From the NCBI GenBank assembly GCA_003220345.1, contig QHSC01000111.1:1-45567 (forward strand): DNA of 45,567 nucleotides, written 5' to 3'. The notes below the pieces were generated by a model. That model had not been told where the DNA came from. It searched no databases and worked only from the letters and a program-made list of their open reading frames with translations. A program made the position numbers and the translations under genes. The stretch is from Candidatus Rokuibacteriota bacterium. Lineage in GTDB: Bacteria > Methylomirabilota > Methylomirabilia > Rokubacteriales > CSP1-6. Shown here in pieces: positions 3,495 to 11,424 of the stretch. Within the stretch, counting starts at the first letter, position 1. The number at the start of each line of letters is the position of its first letter.

Positions 3495-3620
3495 GAGTTA
3501 CTGCGTAAGACCTCCCTAGCCGTCCTCGAAAGTTCGTCATGCCCACATGCTCCAGCGCACCGCCGACACTGGGAACCTTCCAGAGTGCCCCAGGCGTCTG
3601 AAAGAGTGGGAGGTGTGGCC

Positions 3621-3950
3621 ATGAAAAAGCTCGTGCTCATCCTGGCTCTCCTGACTTTCGCATTGGCGCCCGGCTTGGCCCACGCGGGCGGCTTCCACGC
3701 CGGATTCCACGACAATCGATCAAAGGTCCAGGTGCAGTTCTTCTGGCGCCCCTTCTTTTACGCGGGCCCTTTCCTCTACGGCTATCCCGCCGGCTTCGGC
3801 TACGGGTATCCGGGCCCATATTTCAGCGAGGGCGATGGAGACGCCACTCGTTATACGTACGGATATCCCGGGCCCTATACCTATGGAGTCTACGGCTACA
3901 CCCGTCCATCGTGCGCCGCGCAGCTCAACGGCTACTGGGTGTGCAGTTGA
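3621..3950 (+). CDS. Small secreted Gly/Tyr/Pro-rich protein
   Basis: A 109-residue protein starting at the ATG at 3621, with GGGAGG as ribosome-binding site eight to thirteen bases upstream. A classical signal peptide (MKKLVLILALLTFALAPGLAHA) ends with Ala-His-Ala. The mature part is strongly enriched in Gly, Tyr, Pro and Phe with repeated Y-G-Y-P-G-P units around residues 60-95, and ends in a short Cys-containing tail (SCAAQLNGYWVCS) that could form one disulfide. Similar low-complexity exported proteins are common next to stress genes in proteobacteria, and are usually annotated as hypothetical. No function is assigned. It probably shares a transcript with the next small gene, which begins 10 bp after its stop. 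Confidence 0.65.
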   Translation: MKKLVLILALLTFALAPGLAHAGGFHAGFHDNRSKVQVQFFWRPFFYAGPFLYGYPAGFGYGYPGPYFSEGDGDATRYTYGYPGPYTYGVYGYTRPSCAAQLNGYWVCS

Positions 3951-3959
3951 TCGCTGCCC

Positions 3960-4157
3960 ATGAGACCGTATGGATGGATCGTAGCCATTCTTGTCGTCCT
4001 CGCCCTGGTGGGGACGGCATTCGTCCTGGCGTCCCAAAAGCATTCCGGGCCTGACTGCGCGGGCCGCGTGGTCATGATCAGAGGTCTTCACGGAGCGCCC
4101 CTGGAGTGCGTGTGCGTCCAGGGTGTGATCGCGAGCTGCTTCGAACCCGGATCTTGA
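3960..4157 (+). CDS. Small membrane-anchored Cys-containing peptide
   Basis: A 65-residue protein: short N-terminal MRPYG, one hydrophobic helix (residues 6-25, WIVAILVVLALVGTAFVLAS), then a 40-residue exported tail with four cysteines (DCAGR, ECVCVQ, SCFEP) that may form disulfides. It follows the Gly/Tyr-rich gene by 9 bp in the same direction, so co-expression is likely. I do not recognise a family. Its size makes it less certain as a gene, but the helix-plus-cysteines layout and tight spacing support it. Confidence 0.5.
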   Translation: MRPYGWIVAILVVLALVGTAFVLASQKHSGPDCAGRVVMIRGLHGAPLECVCVQGVIASCFEPGS

Positions 4158-4226
4158 GGTCCGCACCGTCTCGGACGGCTCGAGACGATGACGGCCTGAC
4201 GTGTTCATCGAGGGCTTGAGATACTG

Positions 4227-5126
4227 GTGGGCATGGTTCCGGTCAGGTTGGTGCAGCGCTCCCCGGCTCGTGTCGGCTCCGAGGCGCTCGCGCGCATCGT
4301 CGCCAGCCTGAGGGAGCAGATCGACGCGATTCGCGGCCACGCGGGAGGCGCCCGGCGCGGGACCGATCCGGAGGACGTCCACGAGATGCGCACGGCCGCG
4401 CGCCGACTCCGGGCCATCTTGCGCGCCGTCCGGTCGGGCTTCGACCGCGCGTGGGTGGAAGCGCTTCGGAGCGAGCTCGACTGGCTCGGCAGCACGTTGG
4501 GCGCCGTTCGGGACCTCGACGTCCTCCGGGAGCATCTGCGTGACGAGCTGGCAGCGCTCGAAGACTCGACGCGACGATCTGCGTCTCTCCAGCTCTCGGA
4601 GTGCCTTGACGTCGAGCACTCCCGCGCGAGGGCAAAGCTGCTCGCTGCCCTGGACAGCCCGCGCTATAGGGAGCTCTTGCGCCGCCTCGATGAAGCCGTG
4701 CGACAGCCGCGCGTGGCGACCGCGGATCTCTCCCTTCCCCGGATCGCCGCACGGCAATTCAAGAAGCTTCGCAAGGCGGTGAAGGCCTTGCCCGCTGAGC
4801 CGAGCAACGCGGAGCTCCATGCCGTGCGGATCGAGGTGAAGCGCGCTCGCTACGCTGCCGAGCTGGCGGCGGAGGAGGTCGGACGCCCGGCGGCGCGCTT
4901 CGTCGACAAGGCCAAGAAGGTTCAGGACATTCTCGGCGAGCACCAGGATGCCGTGATGGCCGAATCGCGCATCCGGGCCTGGCTCCGGGGCATCCGGAGC
5001 CGCTCCGCGACATGGCTCAGAGACCATCTGATAAAGCGCCAGCGCGCGCGACGTCAGGAGGCCCGCAAGGCTTTCTGGAAGAGGTGGCCCAGGCTCAAGC
5101 GGCGGGGGCGAAAGGCATGGACGTGA
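4227..5126 (+). CDS. CHAD domain protein
   Basis: A 299-residue all-helical protein with the two hallmark CHAD repeats. The first is around residues 50-69 (DVHEMRTAARRLRAILRAVR, His52); the second is around 196-212 (LHAVRIEVKRARYAAEL, His198). CHAD domains are basic helical bundles that bind inorganic polyphosphate, and are often found with CYTH triphosphatases or localised to polyphosphate granules. No CYTH domain is fused or adjacent here. The C-terminus is very rich in Arg and Lys, as expected for polyanion binding. The start is either GTG 4227 or ATG 4233, two codons later; I cannot separate them. The gene converges on pup. Confidence 0.85.
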   Translation: MGMVPVRLVQRSPARVGSEALARIVASLREQIDAIRGHAGGARRGTDPEDVHEMRTAARRLRAILRAVRSGFDRAWVEALRSELDWLGSTLGAVRDLDVLREHLRDELAALEDSTRRSASLQLSECLDVEHSRARAKLLAALDSPRYRELLRRLDEAVRQPRVATADLSLPRIAARQFKKLRKAVKALPAEPSNAELHAVRIEVKRARYAAELAAEEVGRPAARFVDKAKKVQDILGEHQDAVMAESRIRAWLRGIRSRSATWLRDHLIKRQRARRQEARKAFWKRWPRLKRRGRKAWT

Positions 5127-5138
5127 GAGAGCTGAACG

Positions 5139-5157
5139 GTCCGGCCCTTCGCCGGAC
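5139..5157 (+). terminator. GC-rich hairpin after the CHAD gene
   Basis: GTCCGGC, a 5-nt loop and GCCGGAC form a perfect 7-bp stem 12 bp after the CHAD stop codon. There is no U-tract, so intrinsic termination is uncertain. Confidence 0.35.
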
Positions 5158-5163
5158 GACAGC

Positions 5164-5209
5164 GCAGGCTGCGGATGCGCTCGGGTGCGTCGAGCGCAGC
5201 GCAGCCTGC
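5164..5209. terminator. Long two-tier hairpin between CHAD and pup
   Basis: An outer 10-bp stem (GCAGGCTGCG at 5164-5173 with CGCAGCCTGC at 5200-5209) encloses an inner 7-bp stem (GCGCTCG at 5177-5183 with CGAGCGC at 5191-5197), separated by small internal loops of 3 and 2 nt and capped by a 7-nt loop. It sits between convergent genes and works in either strand, so a bidirectional terminator or RNA 3'-end protector is the simplest reading. Confidence 0.45.
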
Positions 5210-5249
5210 TCTCACCGCCTGAGCGAAGCTGCCGTCGCGGCTCCGCCGA

Positions 5250-5444
5250 TCACTGACCGCCGTGCTGGATATAGCCGGCGACGAACTCCTCGGCATTTTC
5301 CTCGAGCACATCGTCGATCTCGTCCAGGACGCTGTCCAGCTTCTTCTTGATGTTCTCGCCTTTGCCCGCCAGCCGATTCTCGACCTCCTCGGGCGCTTCT
5401 TGCGTCTCCGAAGGCCTGATGCGTGTTTTCGTCTGTTCGGCCAT
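5250..5444 (-). CDS. pup: Pup, prokaryotic ubiquitin-like protein (C-terminal GGQ)
   Basis: A 64-residue, acidic, probably disordered protein. The C-terminal half carries the Pup signature: LDEIDDVLEENAEEFV at residues 40-55 followed by AGYIQHGGQ to the end. This matches actinobacterial Pup almost residue for residue, including the helical segment bound by the proteasomal ATPase Mpa and the final Gly-Gly-Gln. In known systems the terminal Gln is deamidated to Glu by Dop and then ligated to target lysines by PafA, and tagged proteins go to the Mpa-20S proteasome. The N-terminal half is variable, as usual. GAGGAGG lies 8 bp before the ATG. Dop, PafA, Mpa and the 20S subunits are not in this window, so the gene stands alone. 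It is not the UBact family, which is a different sequence type. Identification is very confident. Confidence 0.93.
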   Translation of the reverse strand: MAEQTKTRIRPSETQEAPEEVENRLAGKGENIKKKLDSVLDEIDDVLEENAEEFVAGYIQHGGQ

Positions 5445-5731
5445 GATTCTCGCCTCCTCGTGTCGTCACCAGCCTTACCCCAGGCACGCCATCCATCTTC
5501 GCCTTCACGATCACTTTGGTGAGCAACCGGCATGCCAGCGAGGCCAGAAGCTCATTGAATCCGGAGGTTCGTCCCGCTGGACGGGCTCGGCGCGGCCGCG
5601 ACCGCGATCTACCGGGTCAAGACTTCCGAGTCGAGGCCCCATCACGACCGGTTGCAGAACCGATGAGAGGGAGAGAGCATCGAAAACGAGGAGAGGCGCA
5701 CCGTCTCGTGAGACTCACGAAGGAGAAGCCC
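5445..5731. other. Divergent intergenic region between pup and the aldehyde dehydrogenase
   Basis: About 287 bp with no credible gene. It must hold the pup promoter and a promoter for the dehydrogenase operon, but I see no convincing -35/-10 pairs and no sigma-54 motif. The only clear elements are the two ribosome-binding sites at its ends. Confidence 0.4.
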
Positions 5732-7096
5732 ATGAGCATCCACTCCGTCAACCCCGCAACCGGAGAGACCCTCGAAACCTACGAGGAAACCGCCCCGCGC
5801 GAGCTCGAACAGATCCTGGCGCGGGCCCAGGAGGTGTTCCTCGAGTGGCGCACCGTGCCCTTTGCCGACCGTGCCCTCCGGATGCGTAAGGCGGCGGAGC
5901 TCCTCCGGCGGCGCCAGACGGAGCATGCGCGCACCATGACGCTCGAGATGGGCAAGCCCATCGTGCAGGCCGAGGCCGAGGTGGAGAAGTGCGCCTCCGT
6001 GTGCGACTACTACGCAGAGCACGCGGAATCCTTTCTCGCCAAGCAGCCGCGGGCCACGGAGGCGGCCAGCAGCTATGTGCGGTTCGACCCTCTCGGGGCC
6101 ATCCTCGCCGTGATGCCGTGGAACTTTCCTTTCTGGCAGGTCTTCCGATTCGCCGCCCCCGCTCTCATGGCCGGCAATGTCGGCATTCTCAAGCACGCGT
6201 CCAACGTGCCCGGCTGCTCTCTGGCCATCGAGCAGGTCTTTCGCGACGCGGGCTTCCCGCCCGGCGTCTTTGCGAGCGTGCTCATCCCGTCGTCGATGAT
6301 CGCCGGGCTCATCGCGGATCCCCGCGTTGCCGCGGCCACGCTGACGGGAAGCGAGCGCGCCGGGAGCACCGTGGCCGAGCACGCAGGCCGGCACCTGAAG
6401 AAGACCGTGCTCGAGCTCGGGGGCAGCGACCCCTTCATCGTGCTCGCGGATGGCGATGTGGCAGCCGCGGCCCGGACGGCGGCAGACGCGCGGCTGATCA
6501 ACAGCGGCCAGAGCTGCATCGCGGCCAAGCGCTTCATCGTCGTCGAAGCGCTCGCGGATCAGTTCATCGAGAGATTCCGCGGCGAGCTCCAGGGCCGCCG
6601 CATGGGCGATCCCCTGGCGCGCGAGACGCAGGTCGGTCCGCAGGCCCGCGCCGATCTCCGGGACGCCCTCCACCGGCAGGTCGAGGAATCCATCAAGCGC
6701 GGGGCCAAGCGTCTGCTCGGGGGCGAGATCCCGGCGGGCAAGGGGGCATTCTACCCTCCCACGCTGCTCGCGGCCGTGGACAAGGGCATGCCCGCCTTCG
6801 ACGAGGAGACGTTCGGCCCGGTGGCGGCGGTCGTCCGCGCCAAGGACGAGGCCGATGCCGTGCGTCTCGCCAACGACTCGCCGTACGGGCTCGGGGCCTC
6901 TGTGTGGACTCGGGATCGCGCCTGCGCGGAGCGCGTGGCCGCCCAGATCGAGGCGGGCACGGTGTTCGTGAACAGCTTCGTGAAGTCGGATCCGCGCATG
7001 CCCTTCGGGGGGATCAAGCGCTCGGGCTATGGCCGCGAGCTATCGGAGTATGGCATCCGCGAGTTCGTCAACATCAAGTCGGTGTGGATCGCCTAG
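5732..7096 (+). CDS. sad: NAD(P)-dependent succinate-semialdehyde dehydrogenase (Sad/YneI-like)
   Basis: A 454-residue aldehyde dehydrogenase starting at ATG 5732 (ribosome-binding site AAGGAG). It begins INPATGE-like (VNPATGETLETYEET), as in the Sad/GabD branch. The catalytic Cys262 lies in SGQSCIAAKRF and the general base Glu228 in VLELGGSDPF; PWNFPFWQV and the C-terminal PFGGIKRSGYGREL are also present. Overall phrases match E. coli Sad (YneI) closely, for example the EVEKCASVCDYYAEH and ADLRDALHRQVE regions. The expected reaction is oxidation of succinate semialdehyde to succinate, for example in GABA or 4-hydroxybutyrate breakdown. A TPP enzyme gene starts 10 bp downstream, suggesting the aldehyde comes from decarboxylation of a 2-oxo acid. 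Substrate choice is inferred from similarity only. Confidence 0.85.
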   Translation: MSIHSVNPATGETLETYEETAPRELEQILARAQEVFLEWRTVPFADRALRMRKAAELLRRRQTEHARTMTLEMGKPIVQAEAEVEKCASVCDYYAEHAESFLAKQPRATEAASSYVRFDPLGAILAVMPWNFPFWQVFRFAAPALMAGNVGILKHASNVPGCSLAIEQVFRDAGFPPGVFASVLIPSSMIAGLIADPRVAAATLTGSERAGSTVAEHAGRHLKKTVLELGGSDPFIVLADGDVAAAARTAADARLINSGQSCIAAKRFIVVEALADQFIERFRGELQGRRMGDPLARETQVGPQARADLRDALHRQVEESIKRGAKRLLGGEIPAGKGAFYPPTLLAAVDKGMPAFDEETFGPVAAVVRAKDEADAVRLANDSPYGLGASVWTRDRACAERVAAQIEAGTVFVNSFVKSDPRMPFGGIKRSGYGRELSEYGIREFVNIKSVWIA

Positions 7097-7106
7097 CGGA
7101 CCGGTC

Positions 7107-8741
7107 ATGAAGGCCTCCGATCTCATCGTGCAGTGTCTCGAGAACGAGGGTGTGCGCTACGTCTTCGGACTGCCCGGCGAGGAGATTCTGGACATCCTGG
7201 ACTCGCTCGCCGACTCTCGGGTCACCTTCATTCCCACGCGCCACGAGCAGGGCGCTGCCTTCATGGCCGACGCCTACGGTCGGCTGACCGGCACGGCGGG
7301 GGTGTGTCTCTCGACGCTCGGGCCCGGAGCGACCAACCTCGCCACGGGTATCGCCGACGCCAACCTCGACCGCGCGCCCCTCGTGGCCATCACGGGTCAG
7401 GCCGCCCGCGATCGCATCCACAAGGAGTCCCACCAGCACGTCGACATCATCGAGCACCTGCGCCCGTTGACGAAGTGGAACACGCGCCTGGAAACGGCGA
7501 CCGTGATTCCCGAGGTGATCCGCAAGGCTTTCAAGCTCGCGGAGTCCGAGAAGCCGGGCGCCTGCCACGTCGAGGTGCCAGAGGACGTGGCGGGAGAAGC
7601 CGTCGAGGGGACACCGCTGTCCACCGAGCGGGCGAGGCGGCCGTCGCCGGACCGCCCGGCCCTCCAGGCCGCCGTCCGCCTCATCGAGGAAGCCTCACAT
7701 CCACTCATCTTCGCCGGGAACGGAGTCATCAGGGGGCACGCCTCCAGGGAGCTTCGCGAGCTCGCGCGGACTCACGGCATCCCCGTCGTGCACACCTTCA
7801 TGGCCAAGGGCTCGATGCCCTCCGACGACGATCTCTGCTTGCTGTCGGCCGGGCTCCAGGCCCGCGACTATGTCTCGTGCGGGTTCGACAAGGCGGATCT
7901 CATCATCGCCGTCGGCTATGATCCCGTCGAGTACGCCCCGAAGTTCTGGAACCCCGACCGGAAGAAGCCCATCATTCACATCGACTTCACGCCAGCCGAG
8001 GTGGACAGCTTCTACCAACCCGTGGTCGAGGTGGTGGCCGACGTGCGGGAGGCGCTCGAGCTGCTGAACGACATGGTGAGGGGTGAGAAGGATCCGTCGC
8101 CCTACCTCGAGCTCCGCCGGCTCATCCTCGAAGACCTCGAGGAAGGAGCGGATGATCAGACCTTTCCCCTCAAGCCGCAGCACATCCTGCGAGAGCTCCG
8201 GACCCGCATGGGGCGCGAGGACATCCTCATCTCGGACGTCGGTACCCACAAGCTCTGGATCGCTCGGACCTTCCCGGCCTATGAGCCCAACACCGTGCTG
8301 ATCTCCAACGGCCTGGCCGCCATGGGCTTTGCTCTGCCCGCTGCCATTGCGGCCAAGCTCGTGCACCCGGAGCGGAAGGTGGTGGCGGTGAGCGGCGACG
8401 GCGGCTTCCTCATGAATTCCCAGGAGCTCGAGACAGCGCGCCGTCTGGGGCTGGCGGTCGTGAACGTGATCTTCCGCGACGGCGGATACAACCTGATCCA
8501 GTGGAAGCAGCAGACGCGTCTGGGGCGCGAGACGGGGGTGACCTTCGGCAATCCCGACTTCGTCGCACTGGCGGAAGCGTTTGGCGCGAAGGGCTATCCG
8601 GTGGAGTCCCCGCGCGAGCTCGGCCCCGCCCTGACCCAGGCGCTCGCGGAGCCCGGCCCCTCCATCGTCGATGTCCCCGTCGACTACGGGGAGAACGCGA
8701 AGCTGACGGAGCGGCTCGGGCACCTCGTGTGCCCGATCTAG
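7107..8741 (+). CDS. Thiamine-diphosphate-dependent enzyme, acetolactate synthase large-subunit type
   Basis: A 544-residue protein with the three domains of the family. The N-terminal PYR domain has VFGLPGEEI and the TPP-activating Glu47 (TRHEQGAAFMADAYGR). A central domain follows, and the C-terminal PP domain has the Mg/TPP motif starting GDGG at 430 and ending in RDGGYN. Acetolactate synthases join two pyruvates; relatives include AlsS, sulfoacetaldehyde acetyltransferase and 2-oxo acid decarboxylases. No small regulatory subunit (IlvN) is adjacent, so a catabolic rather than biosynthetic role is more likely. It is co-transcribed with the semialdehyde dehydrogenase (10-bp gap), which would oxidise an aldehyde product if this enzyme acts as a decarboxylase. 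The ATG at 7107 is the first plausible start after the preceding stop. Confidence 0.8.
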   Translation: MKASDLIVQCLENEGVRYVFGLPGEEILDILDSLADSRVTFIPTRHEQGAAFMADAYGRLTGTAGVCLSTLGPGATNLATGIADANLDRAPLVAITGQAARDRIHKESHQHVDIIEHLRPLTKWNTRLETATVIPEVIRKAFKLAESEKPGACHVEVPEDVAGEAVEGTPLSTERARRPSPDRPALQAAVRLIEEASHPLIFAGNGVIRGHASRELRELARTHGIPVVHTFMAKGSMPSDDDLCLLSAGLQARDYVSCGFDKADLIIAVGYDPVEYAPKFWNPDRKKPIIHIDFTPAEVDSFYQPVVEVVADVREALELLNDMVRGEKDPSPYLELRRLILEDLEEGADDQTFPLKPQHILRELRTRMGREDILISDVGTHKLWIARTFPAYEPNTVLISNGLAAMGFALPAAIAAKLVHPERKVVAVSGDGGFLMNSQELETARRLGLAVVNVIFRDGGYNLIQWKQQTRLGRETGVTFGNPDFVALAEAFGAKGYPVESPRELGPALTQALAEPGPSIVDVPVDYGENAKLTERLGHLVCPI

Positions 8742-8760
8742 AAGCCCGGGACGCCATCCC

Positions 8761-9096
8761 ATGGCGCAACTCATGAACGCGGAGGCTTACATGACGCTGG
8801 CGGGCGCCCTGGACGAGCTTGCGCGGCGCGGATTCACCGCGCGCTTCCAGGTCTTCGACGGCGGGCTTCGCGCGGCCGGCGGCGAAGAGACCATGCGGCC
8901 GAAAGACCTGGTGGTCCGTGAGTACTATCGCTTCGAGGGCATCTCGGATCCCGACGACATGGCCATCCTCTACGCCATCGAGAGCACGAGCGGGGTGCGC
9001 GGCACCCTGGCCGACGCCTTCGGGGTGTACTCGGATCCCGCCACGAGCGCGGTCATGCAAGACATCCCCATTCGCGCGAACGGCTCCGGCCCCTAG
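8761..9096 (+). CDS. Conserved small hypothetical protein
   Basis: A 111-residue soluble protein. The layout (helix MTLAGALDELARRGFTARF, then KDLVVREYYRFEGISDPDDMAILYAIES, then GTLADAFGVYSDP) matches a widespread small family that databases sometimes mislabel as phosphoribosylpyrophosphate synthetase; it has none of the real PRPP synthetase motifs. No function is known to me. ATG 8761 is used, with internal ATGs at codons 5 and 11 as alternatives; no strong ribosome-binding site decides. It follows the TPP enzyme by 19 bp and its stop overlaps the stop of the convergent regulator by 4 bp. Confidence 0.65.
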   Translation: MAQLMNAEAYMTLAGALDELARRGFTARFQVFDGGLRAAGGEETMRPKDLVVREYYRFEGISDPDDMAILYAIESTSGVRGTLADAFGVYSDPATSAVMQDIPIRANGSGP

Positions 9097-9947
9097 GCTC
9101 GGCTCGCAGACGCTCCCGCCTCGCGGGCGAGACGACGCATCAGCGCCTCGCTCCCCTCGTCGGCCGGGAAGAAGGCTTCCACCCGCAGCTCGTGCAGCGT
9201 GATGTCGTAGGGGACGCCCAGGCTCGTCAGCGTCGAGAAGAACTTCAGGTGGATATCGCCTCGGGCCAGCTCCACGGCGAGAAAGGGCGCGGTGGAGGCG
9301 TCGAGGTCCAGCTTGCGCCAGTGGTGCGGGACGTCCGGGTAGGAGAGCAGCTCGTCGAGGAGCCGGCCGATCTCGGGATCCCCCCGCAGCAGGTCACGAT
9401 GGAGCCACTGGATGAGCGCGGCTGCCGTCGCCTCCCAGTTCACGATGTACGGGCGGACTCCAAGCGGATGATAGAAGAGCCGCATGGCATTCGCGGGACC
9501 CAGAGTCGTCGCCTGCGCGGGATCGAGGAACAGAGCCATGACCCTTTGCATGCCTTCGTTGCTCATCAGGACATTCCAGTGACCGTCGACCACGAGAGCG
9601 GGGAAGGGCTCCTGCTGGCGGAGCATGAAATCGAGGGCGCGGCGCACCTGGCTCATCTCGGGCGAGGCGAGCCCTCGCTCGAGATACACGGGCGCATAGC
9701 CCGCGGCGAGGAGCAGCTCGTTGCGGCCGCGCGGCGGCACCTCGAGCACGCGGGCGAGAAGGAGGACCATTTCCCGGCTCGGCTTCGCCCGCCCGGTCTC
9801 GATGAAGCTCAGGTGGCGCGAGGAGACCTCGGCCTCCACGGCCAAGGTGAGCTGGCTCATCCGACGGCGCTCGCGCCACTGGCGGAGGAGGGGCCCCAGC
9901 GCGCTCTCCGAGGCCGTCTTGCGCTTCGTGCCCGCCGCCCGCGCCAT
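9093..9947 (-). CDS. XRE-family transcriptional regulator with MmyB-like ligand domain
   Basis: A 284-residue regulator. The N-terminal helix-turn-helix is at residues 19-70 (LRQWRERRRMSQLTLAVEAEVSSRH..., then FIETGRAKPSREMV). The remaining 200 residues match the MmyB-like ligand-binding domain, with phrases such as FPALVVDGHWNVLMSNEG, HPLGVRPYIVNWE and DITLHELRVEAFFPADE. Members of this group are usually encoded divergently from the oxidoreductase or detoxification genes they control, and the domain resembles PAS folds that bind fatty-acid-like molecules. Here the divergent gene is a PaaI-type thioesterase, which fits an acyl ligand. A perfect inverted repeat at 9982-9998 lies between them and is a likely operator. 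The -10-like box at 9954-9959 suggests a leaderless transcript. Confidence 0.85.
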   Translation of the reverse strand: MARAAGTKRKTASESALGPLLRQWRERRRMSQLTLAVEAEVSSRHLSFIETGRAKPSREMVLLLARVLEVPPRGRNELLLAAGYAPVYLERGLASPEMSQVRRALDFMLRQQEPFPALVVDGHWNVLMSNEGMQRVMALFLDPAQATTLGPANAMRLFYHPLGVRPYIVNWEATAAALIQWLHRDLLRGDPEIGRLLDELLSYPDVPHHWRKLDLDASTAPFLAVELARGDIHLKFFSTLTSLGVPYDITLHELRVEAFFPADEGSEALMRRLAREAGASASRA

Positions 9948-9953
9948 GCCGGG

Positions 9954-9959
9954 AGTCTA
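9954..9959 (-). promoter_or_regulatory. -10-like hexamer TAGACT of the XRE regulator
   Basis: On the minus strand TAGACT is followed by six bases and the ATG at 9947. The operator-like repeat at 9982-9998 would overlap the -35 position, consistent with autorepression. Confidence 0.4.
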
Positions 9960-9981
9960 CACCGCTCGCCGGTGCTGGGAC

Positions 9982-9998
9982 ATTACCTCGAAGGTAAT
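9982..9998. promoter_or_regulatory. Inverted repeat ATTACCT-N3-AGGTAAT, likely XRE operator
   Basis: A perfect 7-3-7 palindrome located 35 bp upstream of the regulator start and 60 bp upstream of the divergent thioesterase start. It is conspicuously AT-rich for this region. Position and symmetry fit a dimeric helix-turn-helix regulator controlling both genes; binding itself is inferred. Confidence 0.55.
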
Positions 9999-10057
9999 TG
10001 AACTCGGTGGGAGACCGTTCCATCATGTCCCGCGATCAACGAAAGGAAGGTGCCCTG

Positions 10058-10459
10058 ATGCCGATGGACGCCGCCGCCGTCTCCGACCTCTTCAGAGGAA
10101 CCCTCGCCGAGCTGTTGGGTATCCGTTTCGTCGAAGCGACCCCGGACCGGGTGGTCGCCGAGCTCGACTACAGAGACGAGCTGACCACCGTGGGGGGGAG
10201 CCTCCACGGTGGCACCCTCATGGCCTTCGCCGACACGATCGGCGCGGTGGCCACCGTGCTCAACCTGCCGGAGGGCGCCAGCACCACCACTCTCGAGTCC
10301 AAGACCAACTTCTTCGCGGCGGGGCGCTCCGGAACGGTGCGGGCGGAGACGACGCCACTTCACCGCGGCAAGCGGACCATGGCGTGGCAGACGCGCGTCA
10401 CGAACGACGCCGGGCGCCTCCTCTCGCTGACGATTCAGACCCAGATGGTCCTGACATGA
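10058..10459 (+). CDS. PaaI-family hotdog thioesterase
   Basis: A 133-residue single hotdog domain. The conserved loop and helix GGSLHGGTLMAFADTIGAVAT (about residues 47-67) provide the HGG turn and the acidic residue (Asp) of the active site, followed by strands TTTLESKTNFFAAGRSG and RTMAWQTRVTN. The expected role is hydrolysis of acyl-CoA or aryl-CoA thioesters, either salvage of CoA or removal of inhibitory thioesters. ATG 10058 is preferred to an in-frame ATG at 10025 because AAGGAAGG sits just before it. Its stop codon overlaps the start of the next gene (ATGA), so the two are translationally coupled. It lies divergent from the MmyB-type regulator that probably controls it. Confidence 0.85.
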   Translation: MPMDAAAVSDLFRGTLAELLGIRFVEATPDRVVAELDYRDELTTVGGSLHGGTLMAFADTIGAVATVLNLPEGASTTTLESKTNFFAAGRSGTVRAETTPLHRGKRTMAWQTRVTNDAGRLLSLTIQTQMVLT

Positions 10460-11424
10460 AGGTTGGCTTCGCCGGGCCCTTCTCTGTCCGGCTCGCGGAT
10501 CGGGTGCGGCGTCACCTGAACGTGGAGTGCGAGATGATCCTGGCCGACGAGTCCGGCGTGGTCGGCCTGCTCCCGGAGGTCGACGTCCTGGTCACGCTCG
10601 GCTTCACGCGCGAGATGGGCGCGGCGGCCGCGCGACTCAAGCTCGTGCAGGTGCCGGGTGCGGGGCTGGACCGGATCGATCGCTCCGCGCTCCCCGCGGG
10701 CACCGCGCTGGCCAACGCCTACAACCACGAGGTCGGCATCGCCGAGTACGTGATGGGCGCCATGCTCGCCTTGAGCCGAGACCTCTGTCGGCTCGATGCG
10801 GCCCTGCGGCGGGGACGCTGGGAGAGCCCGTGGGTGCCGGGAGCCGAGCCGCCCCCGACATGGCCCGAGCTGACGGGCAAGACGCTGGGAATCCTGGGCT
10901 ATGGCCGCATCGGCCAGGAGCTCGCTCGGCGGGCGCGCGCCTTCGACATGACGATATGGGCGATGCGCCAGAGGGTGACGCGAGAGGACGCGCCCGGCCT
11001 CGCTTTTCTGGGGGGACCGGAGGCGCTGGACGAGATCCTGAAGCGCGCGGACTACCTCGCCATCACGCTGCCGCTGACCGAGGCCACCCGCGGTCTTCTC
11101 GGCGCGCGGGAGCTCGGGCTGATGAAGCCCACGGCCGTGCTCGTGAACGTGGCGCGGGCGCTCATCGTGGACGAAGACGCGCTCTATCGGGCGCTCCGCC
11201 AGGGGACCATCGCGGGGGCCGCGCTCGACGTGTGGTATCGATATCCAACGAACGGAGAGCCGGCGTTTCCCTCCCGCCACCCGTTCCACGAGCTGCCCAG
11301 CGTGCTCGCGACACCGCATGTGTCGGGGTGGACGGAAGGCACCATGGAGGGCCGCGCCCGGCTTGTCGCGGAGAATATCGGCCGCGTGGCGCGAGGGGAG
11401 CCGGTGGCCAATATGGTTCCGTAG
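10456..11424 (+). CDS. D-isomer-specific 2-hydroxyacid dehydrogenase family protein
   Basis: A 322-residue NAD(P)-dependent oxidoreductase. The Rossmann motif GYGRIG is at 148-153 (LGILGYGRIGQELARRA), the substrate-binding Arg234 lies in NVARALIVDEDAL, and His288 in ATPHVSGWTEG. At the position where most family members have the catalytic Glu paired to this His (the E in DVFxxEP), this protein has Tyr263 in LDVWYRYPTNGEP. Such variation occurs in some subgroups, so activity may be retained with altered chemistry or specificity. The N-terminal region is short, as in phosphonate or glyoxylate dehydrogenase-like groups. It overlaps the thioesterase stop by 4 bp. The reaction would be reversible oxidation of a 2-hydroxy acid to a 2-oxo acid; substrate unknown. 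Confidence 0.85.
   Translation: MKVGFAGPFSVRLADRVRRHLNVECEMILADESGVVGLLPEVDVLVTLGFTREMGAAAARLKLVQVPGAGLDRIDRSALPAGTALANAYNHEVGIAEYVMGAMLALSRDLCRLDAALRRGRWESPWVPGAEPPPTWPELTGKTLGILGYGRIGQELARRARAFDMTIWAMRQRVTREDAPGLAFLGGPEALDEILKRADYLAITLPLTEATRGLLGARELGLMKPTAVLVNVARALIVDEDALYRALRQGTIAGAALDVWYRYPTNGEPAFPSRHPFHELPSVLATPHVSGWTEGTMEGRARLVAENIGRVARGEPVANMVP

Follow-up and report, generated by a model that had tools for sequence, protein, structure and literature searches.

The Pup gene and its neighbours

The window, i.e. the whole stretch of 45,567 nucleotides analysed here (a single contig, C274, of a Candidatus Rokuibacteriota bacterium assembly), carries at positions 5250..5444 on the minus strand an open reading frame, read from 5444 down to 5250, that starts with ATG and encodes a protein of 64 residues, further referred to as Pup2. 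The plus-strand frame over the same positions bears no relation to Pup. The protein ends in LDEIDDVLEENAEEFVAGYIQHGGQ, and its HGGQ terminus displays the C-terminal G[E/Q] signature of the prokaryotic ubiquitin-like modifiers; the name UBact is used for the Pup-like protein of Gram-negative bacteria. The Pfam model for Pup (PF05639) aligned positions 6-69 of its 69 positions with residues 4-64 of Pup2 (E-value 2e-19; 70.7 bits against a gathering threshold of 27), the NCBIfam model TIGR03687 scored 60.9 bits (cut-off 41.45), and in both scans the Pup model was the only one to exceed its cut-off. These scores are far above chance and Pup2 is a genuine, Gln-ending Pup, as had been claimed in an earlier note made from the sequence alone. 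Its length also lies inside the range of 50-90 residues given for this small protein in the available part of PMC2588565. A ribosome-binding-site-like AGGAGG (5453..5458, minus strand) can be read from the sequence 8 nt before the ATG, and consensus scans of positions 4900-5900 yielded no promoter-like and no terminator-like site.

A gene for a CHAD-domain protein (4227..5126, plus strand; PF05235, 191.2 bits), a relative of which is found on contig C5 with 70% DNA identity, is convergent with pup2. On the other side follow, on the plus strand, an aldehyde dehydrogenase gene (5732..7096; PF00171, 463.1 bits; protein 88% identical in G003, the genome of a sister species), which is also present in other relatives, and a gene for an acetolactate-synthase-like thiamine-pyrophosphate enzyme recognised with Pfam (7107..8741; 94% identical in G003). 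Both neighbours named in the earlier note, namely the CHAD protein and the aldehyde dehydrogenase, are thereby corroborated by strong Pfam matches, and neither is dop, pafA or a proteasome gene. To the left lie, again on the plus strand, a gene for a 109-residue protein (3621..3950; 90% identical in G003) and an open reading frame of 65 residues (3960..4157; 66% in G003 over 62 residues), both lacking a Pfam match. Three of the five flanking genes tested with Pfam thus gave cellular-type matches and two gave none; no phage gene was recognised among them, and a comparison of the CHAD protein with PHROG gave nothing better than an E-value of 0.094. PF03136, TIGR03690 and TIGR03689 had zero matches on C274.

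The CHAD gene and pup2 share an accessory stretch (4151..5611, with an uncertain right edge that lies at the latest at 5718), which has the 65-residue frame at its left edge and is absent from G003. That genome is collinear with the window over positions 3572-4150 (84% identity) and 5719-10594 (89%) with a gap of only 169 bp, so that the two genes were either inserted in this genome, on a piece of 1.46 to 1.57 kb, or lost from G003; in a global alignment weak right-hand homology reaches to about 5612. In 11 relatives the region around the aldehyde dehydrogenase gene (L113-L123, covering about 1.5 kb upstream of it) contained neither the CHAD nor the Pup gene, while both were present at the window's own locus. 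Since G003 is the only one of the 11 that shares the left-hand gene as well, gain is no more than weakly favoured over loss; on this reading the lineage leading to this species probably acquired pup2 and the adjacent CHAD gene together.

The main Pup and the proteasome gene set of the host genome

The host genome belongs to the Methylomirabilota, the phylum in which GTDB unites Rokubacteria and NC10, and is non-actinobacterial, as the earlier note had supposed. A search of the assembly (5.63 Mb in 429 contigs, 96.6% complete, 7.3% contaminated) with PF05639 returned two Pups, i.e. Pup2 on C274 and an ordinary, main Pup on contig C105, where the gene order is thrB-dcd-pup-fmdB-lysR. The gene that the earlier note described as isolated does stand alone, but it is an accessory second copy; the ordinary Pup encoded elsewhere was outside the view of that note.

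A compact cluster mpa-dop-prcB-prcA-pafA is located on contig C402. All five products were assigned by NCBIfam above the curated cut-offs (for instance PafA by TIGR03686 with 629.9 bits, cut-off 551.3, and Dop by TIGR03688 with 562.4 bits, cut-off 492.3), and Mpa ends in GQYL, which we take to be the proteasome-docking end. PF03136 matched the assembly in two places only, both on C402, corresponding to one PafA and one Dop, with PrcB and Mpa between or beside them; as the genome has a single copy of each, the two Pups would share both enzymes. A Pup gene hidden between dop and prcB was considered and dismissed, since no Pup match was found there and the prcB frame starts at the dop stop. The cluster is intact and standard and lacks pup alone, and the main pup on C105 is likewise not adjacent to it. 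The search for Dop, PafA, Mpa and PrcA/PrcB that the earlier note had advised thus recovered every one of them on C402, including the deamidase that a Gln-ending Pup needs, and the genome did not prove to be an actinobacterial one with a standard locus. The placement of pup2 away from the ligase and proteasome genes was seen correctly, and only the picture of a dispersed gene set has to be given up.

The DNA identity to G003 amounts to 90-92% for C402, 83-90% for C105 (94% for one piece of 128 bp) and 84-89% for C274, and the identity to genome G002 to 74-78% for C105 and 79% for C274. Such similar distances to congeners imply that the three contigs fit together and that contamination is unlikely.

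Divergence of Pup2

When aligned with the main Pup of its own genome, Pup2 is identical at 34 of 64 positions and different at 30, whereas 46 main Pups of the family show pairwise identities of 71-100% (median 85%). Pup2 has diverged in its first half and, close to the C-terminus, at two positions that are basic in other Pups. Position -4, counted from the end of the protein, is histidine in Pup2, the sole exception to the K/R found in 148 of 149 Pup genes, and position -9 is alanine, where 145 of the 149 have K/R; the other three exceptions (L043, L053 and L059) each come from a genome with two Pup matches. The main Pup on C105 has both basic residues, lysine at -9 and arginine at -4. These residues are a pattern seen in this gene set rather than a criterion taken from publications. 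In the available text of PMC8599861 the second helix of Dop-bound Pup spans N57-S64 and the last residue is Q71; counting back from the end, -9 falls inside that helix and -4 in the tail. Given where it has diverged, the affinity or the recycling of Pup2 could be unlike that of the main Pup.

Over the 43 C-terminal codons, the comparison of Pup2 with the main Pup gave dN 0.27 and dS 0.75, that is a dN/dS of about 0.36 on few sites, against dN and dS of 0.05 and 0.49 (L001-L024) or 0.03 and 0.24 (L001-L033) for pairs of main Pups, also on few sites. The higher ratio would be in line with a relaxed constraint on Pup2, as far as so few sites can indicate.

Pup genes across the Methylomirabilota

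A search with the window Pup (E-value 0.001 or better) found matches in 83 of 95 genomes of the phylum, PF03136 being matched in 78 and missing from 17. Eleven of the 95 have two or three Pup matches, from which it follows that extra copies recur, and among these eleven, G026 and G059 have a fragment as their second match and G052 has a fusion. For the comparison of sequences and flanks we compiled 149 Pup genes in which the GG[QE] end is intact, identical DNA having been removed, of which 77 are actinobacterial (chosen by their similarity to the window Pup) and 72 stem from Methylomirabilota, the window gene included. The motif pattern left -9 and -4 free, and broken, fused and partial genes (including L062-L065, L067 and L068) as well as L073, which did not fit the pattern, were filtered out.

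All 77 actinobacterial Pup genes have a proteasome or ligase hit nearby. The flanks scored for the 72 Methylomirabilota genes (between 1.5 and 8 kb, or less where a contig ended) present a different picture: 58 genes have a relative of thrB, dcd, fmdB or lysR nearby but lack any proteasome or ligase hit, seven have a hit to a proteasome or ligase query, and another seven have neither type of neighbour (the window gene, L039, L055, L059, L060, L061 and L066). The order dop-pup-prcB-prcA is found in L016, L070 and L071 and continues into pafA in the latter two; the PafA hit of L016 is the dop gene itself, and PF03136 matches again further along that contig. In L049, L058 and L195 pup is paired with fmdB, and the beginning of mpa is found on the same stretch. 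In L053 (G054, contig C150) a match to the final 45 residues of Mpa precedes Pup by 53 bp, and a further AAA ATPase comes after Pup on the opposite strand, an order unlike dop-pup-prcB; the second Mpa hit of L053 corresponds to a different AAA protein. The arrangements suggest that pup passed from an operon position, via a pup-fmdB pair near mpa, to detachment, although the order of these events is our inference.

Two more general readings were considered. An orphan Pup without a ligase was suggested by the 17 genomes that PF03136 did not match; in six of these (G033, G035, G092, G015, G088 and G061) mpa runs into a contig end, so that the assembly explains the missing PF03136. A rule of one ligase per Pup is contradicted by G030, which has three Pup matches and two PF03136 places. 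A separate case among the 17 is G014 (L218 on contig C5; L056), which has a Pup and, inside a long contig, a full mpa: its assembly gave neither a PF03136 gene nor a PrcB above the cut-off, and the 12 kb after mpa contain no Dop, PrcA, PrcB or PafA.

Some single genes deserve mention. In G052 (contig C54, L064:3383-3979, plus strand) the Pup domain (PF05639, 57.4 bits, residues 5-51) belongs to a frame that runs past GGGQ into a tail of 148 residues, a natural Pup fusion that has no Pfam match beyond Pup and whose tail occurs in no other of the 95 genomes. The match to the main pup ends about five residues early in G025 (L062, which goes out of frame into fmdB after KSY), in G009 (L063, which goes into a run of N) and in G092 (contig C259, known from a match row alone); this may reflect loss or an assembly fault. 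The extra Pups of G030 (L061) and G009 (L060), two species of one genus, are both near a NADH dehydrogenase-like gene and the same small gene (Pfam having been applied to L061), and these common neighbours suggest that this extra copy may be kept.

Phage-borne Pup genes

Pup genes are present on phage contigs. A scan of IMG/VR with an alignment of Pups returned 45 loci that encode a relative of Pup (L225-L269), overlapping the eight that were found with the window Pup. Some of the viral Pups carry rare letters of Pup2 (L226, EEFVAGYIQKGGQ; L229, EEFVAAYIQKGGE; L241, QEFVAGFVQRGGE), and a non-basic residue at -9 occurs in 9 of 21 viral rows as opposed to 3 of 76 cellular rows (Pup2 left out), the 21 rows being those that remained of 30 loci read out of the 45 after the removal of copies, partials and two misfits.

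Some phage Pups sit in DNA-replication modules. Among six viral loci for which the neighbours were read, three have Pup among phage replication genes, as in L272 and L273 (helicase, exonuclease, thymidylate synthase, DNA polymerase) and L233 (an exonuclease and a Sak4-like protein), and one, L274, has a gene for the terminase large subunit no more than 0.7 kb away; the neighbours in L228 include a ribonucleotide reductase and a glycosyltransferase, and few neighbours were recognised in L271. Streptomyces phage Dagobah (L270, MT711977.1) has an annotated Pup (QMP84414.1) after its endolysin gene, followed by one hypothetical gene and then a primase/polymerase. A search of phage and plasmid records with the window Pup gave two phages and one plasmid, the record of which is 11.85 Mb long, and three viral Pups used as queries gave none. 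PHROG had no convincing match for the six Pups tested (including Pup2 and the main Pup; best E-value 0.014), nor for the Pup of L272. A search that reaches close relatives only found none of this genome's PafA in the viral contigs, so that such phages may depend on host enzymes. The available part of a 2025 review (PMC12288473) contains no word beginning with 'phage'. Pup genes on phages would be the weightier finding if phages use them to direct the degradation of proteins in the host.

Position of Pup2 among other Pups

In a tree of 77 rows Pup2 pairs with the extra Pup of G033 (support 99/83) inside the Methylomirabilota family. With viral rows added the pair persists (96/86) but falls outside the branch of main Methylomirabilota Pups (87/95), among some viral rows and a single actinobacterial row whose branching order did not resolve; in this tree, which has many long branches and an unsettled bootstrap, all 28 Methylomirabilota-type rows, together with Pup2, and viral row L225 lie on one side of a branch that is itself unsupported (78/0). 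Compared with the free search, the likelihood was 4.4 log units higher when the pair was constrained to the family clade (p 0.60), 20.3 lower when the pair was constrained with viral rows (p 0.10) and 19.4 lower when Pup2 was constrained with three viral rows (p 0.22), so that neither viral grouping was rejected. A transfer from actinobacteria was considered and rejected, as Pup2 does not group with actinobacterial rows; the highest identity of Pup2 in a 64-row alignment, 56%, is nevertheless to one actinobacterial row.

A common origin of Pup2 and the G033 extra Pup is possible in view of their pairing, but both have long branches, and they share four derived columns, while Pup2 has as many in common with the extra Pup of G054 and five with that of G038; their gene neighbours also differ. 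For the G033 locus, its two congeners showed no collinear flank from which an empty site could be read, and this genome, with the extra Pup nearest to Pup2, showed no PafA or Dop, although its contig ends inside mpa. In G030 and G009 the extra Pups fall within the main Pups, from which it seems that extra copies have arisen more than once.

A probable functional alternative Pup and its rivals

The most likely reading, which we consider reasonably probable, is that Pup2 is a real, accessory second Pup that serves as a functional alternative, used by the shared enzymes alongside the main Pup. The passing of the Pup models, the AGGAGG, the full enzyme set, the main Pup elsewhere in the genome, three contigs that fit together, the recurrence of extra copies and a dN below dS speak for this reading. 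Against it stand the non-basic residues at -9 and -4, the raised dN/dS, the scans that gave no promoter-like or terminator-like site, the weak preference for gain and G033, whose extra Pup is the nearest one and whose assembly showed no PafA or Dop. The single Dop would deamidate the GGQ end to GGE, the single PafA would then join the terminal glutamate to substrate lysines, and the tagged substrates would be delivered via Mpa to the 20S proteasome, in parallel with those of the main Pup. Expression of pup2, conjugation and degradation, like gain rather than loss, are predicted from sequence.

The main rival holds that pup2 is a decaying duplicate, still open, that has been drifting since its move next to the CHAD gene. 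The raised dN/dS, the loss of both basic residues and the accessory nature of the gene, which the sister species lacks, all agree with it, as does an extra-Pup fragment without GG[QE] in G026 (contig C52); yet the frame, the GGQ and the core motif are intact, the AGGAGG precedes the ATG and synonymous change still exceeds non-synonymous change, so we regard decay as rather unlikely. That a phage-carried Pup was left behind in this chromosome is disfavoured and appears improbable. The viral-contig Pups with rare letters of Pup2, the commoner non-basic -9 among them and the position of Pup2 and the G033 extra outside the main-Pup branch lend it some substance, but no phage gene was recognised beside pup2, the stretch carries a CHAD gene, and the viral constraints fit less well than the family clade, on whose side of the (unsupported) branch the Methylomirabilota-type rows are all found with Pup2. 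As to a contaminating contig that brought in pup2 from another organism in the bin, the contamination estimate of 7.27% and the divergence of the gene would be compatible with it; it is nonetheless very improbable in view of the distances of C274, which resemble those of C402 and C105 for G003 and that of C105 for G002, and of flanking genes that are collinear with G003.

Beyond the functional alternative stands a wider conjecture, to which we attach little credence: Pup genes might form an exchangeable pool, from which phages use their own Pup with the PafA, Dop and proteasome of the host, perhaps tagging host proteins, and of which accessory Pups with a non-basic -9, such as Pup2, would be chromosomal survivors or counterparts that act as a second tag of different fate.

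Comparison with known systems

Pup occurs in most Methylomirabilota genomes examined, the tag gene often lies apart from its enzymes, and about a tenth of the genomes have a second Pup match, which raises the question whether one ligase may serve two Pups of different fates. The occurrence of Pup outside actinobacteria has long been known (PMC2588565, as far as available), and PMC8223512, in the part at hand, describes the Pup-proteasome locus as characteristic of actinobacteria. Deamidation by Dop, as well as degradation brought about by genetic fusion to Pup, is treated in the accessible sections of PMC12288473. Our literature search found no paper on pupylation in Rokubacteria, and the first 300,000 characters of PMC7203096 contain neither Methylomirabilis nor pupylation.

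Overall, pup2 is a known kind of gene in an unusual setting. It resembles actinobacterial Pup in its 64 residues, GGQ end and LDEIDDVLEENAEEFV core, and the host has Mpa, Dop, PrcB, PrcA and PafA in one cluster as at the actinobacterial locus, but here pup is outside the cluster and present twice. With the Methylomirabilota main Pup it shares the family and 34 of 64 positions, whereas it lacks the K at -9 and the R at -4. Phage-borne Pups, i.e. those of Dagobah and IMG/VR, likewise have the core and the GG[QE] end, some with a non-basic -9, yet no phage gene was recognised near pup2 and the trees do not favour a viral grouping. A precedent is formed by the organisms with two pup genes in one genome mentioned in PMC3511204; compared with these, as described in the portion available, the present genome differs in that both Pups end in Gln and neither is encoded in the proteasome cluster.
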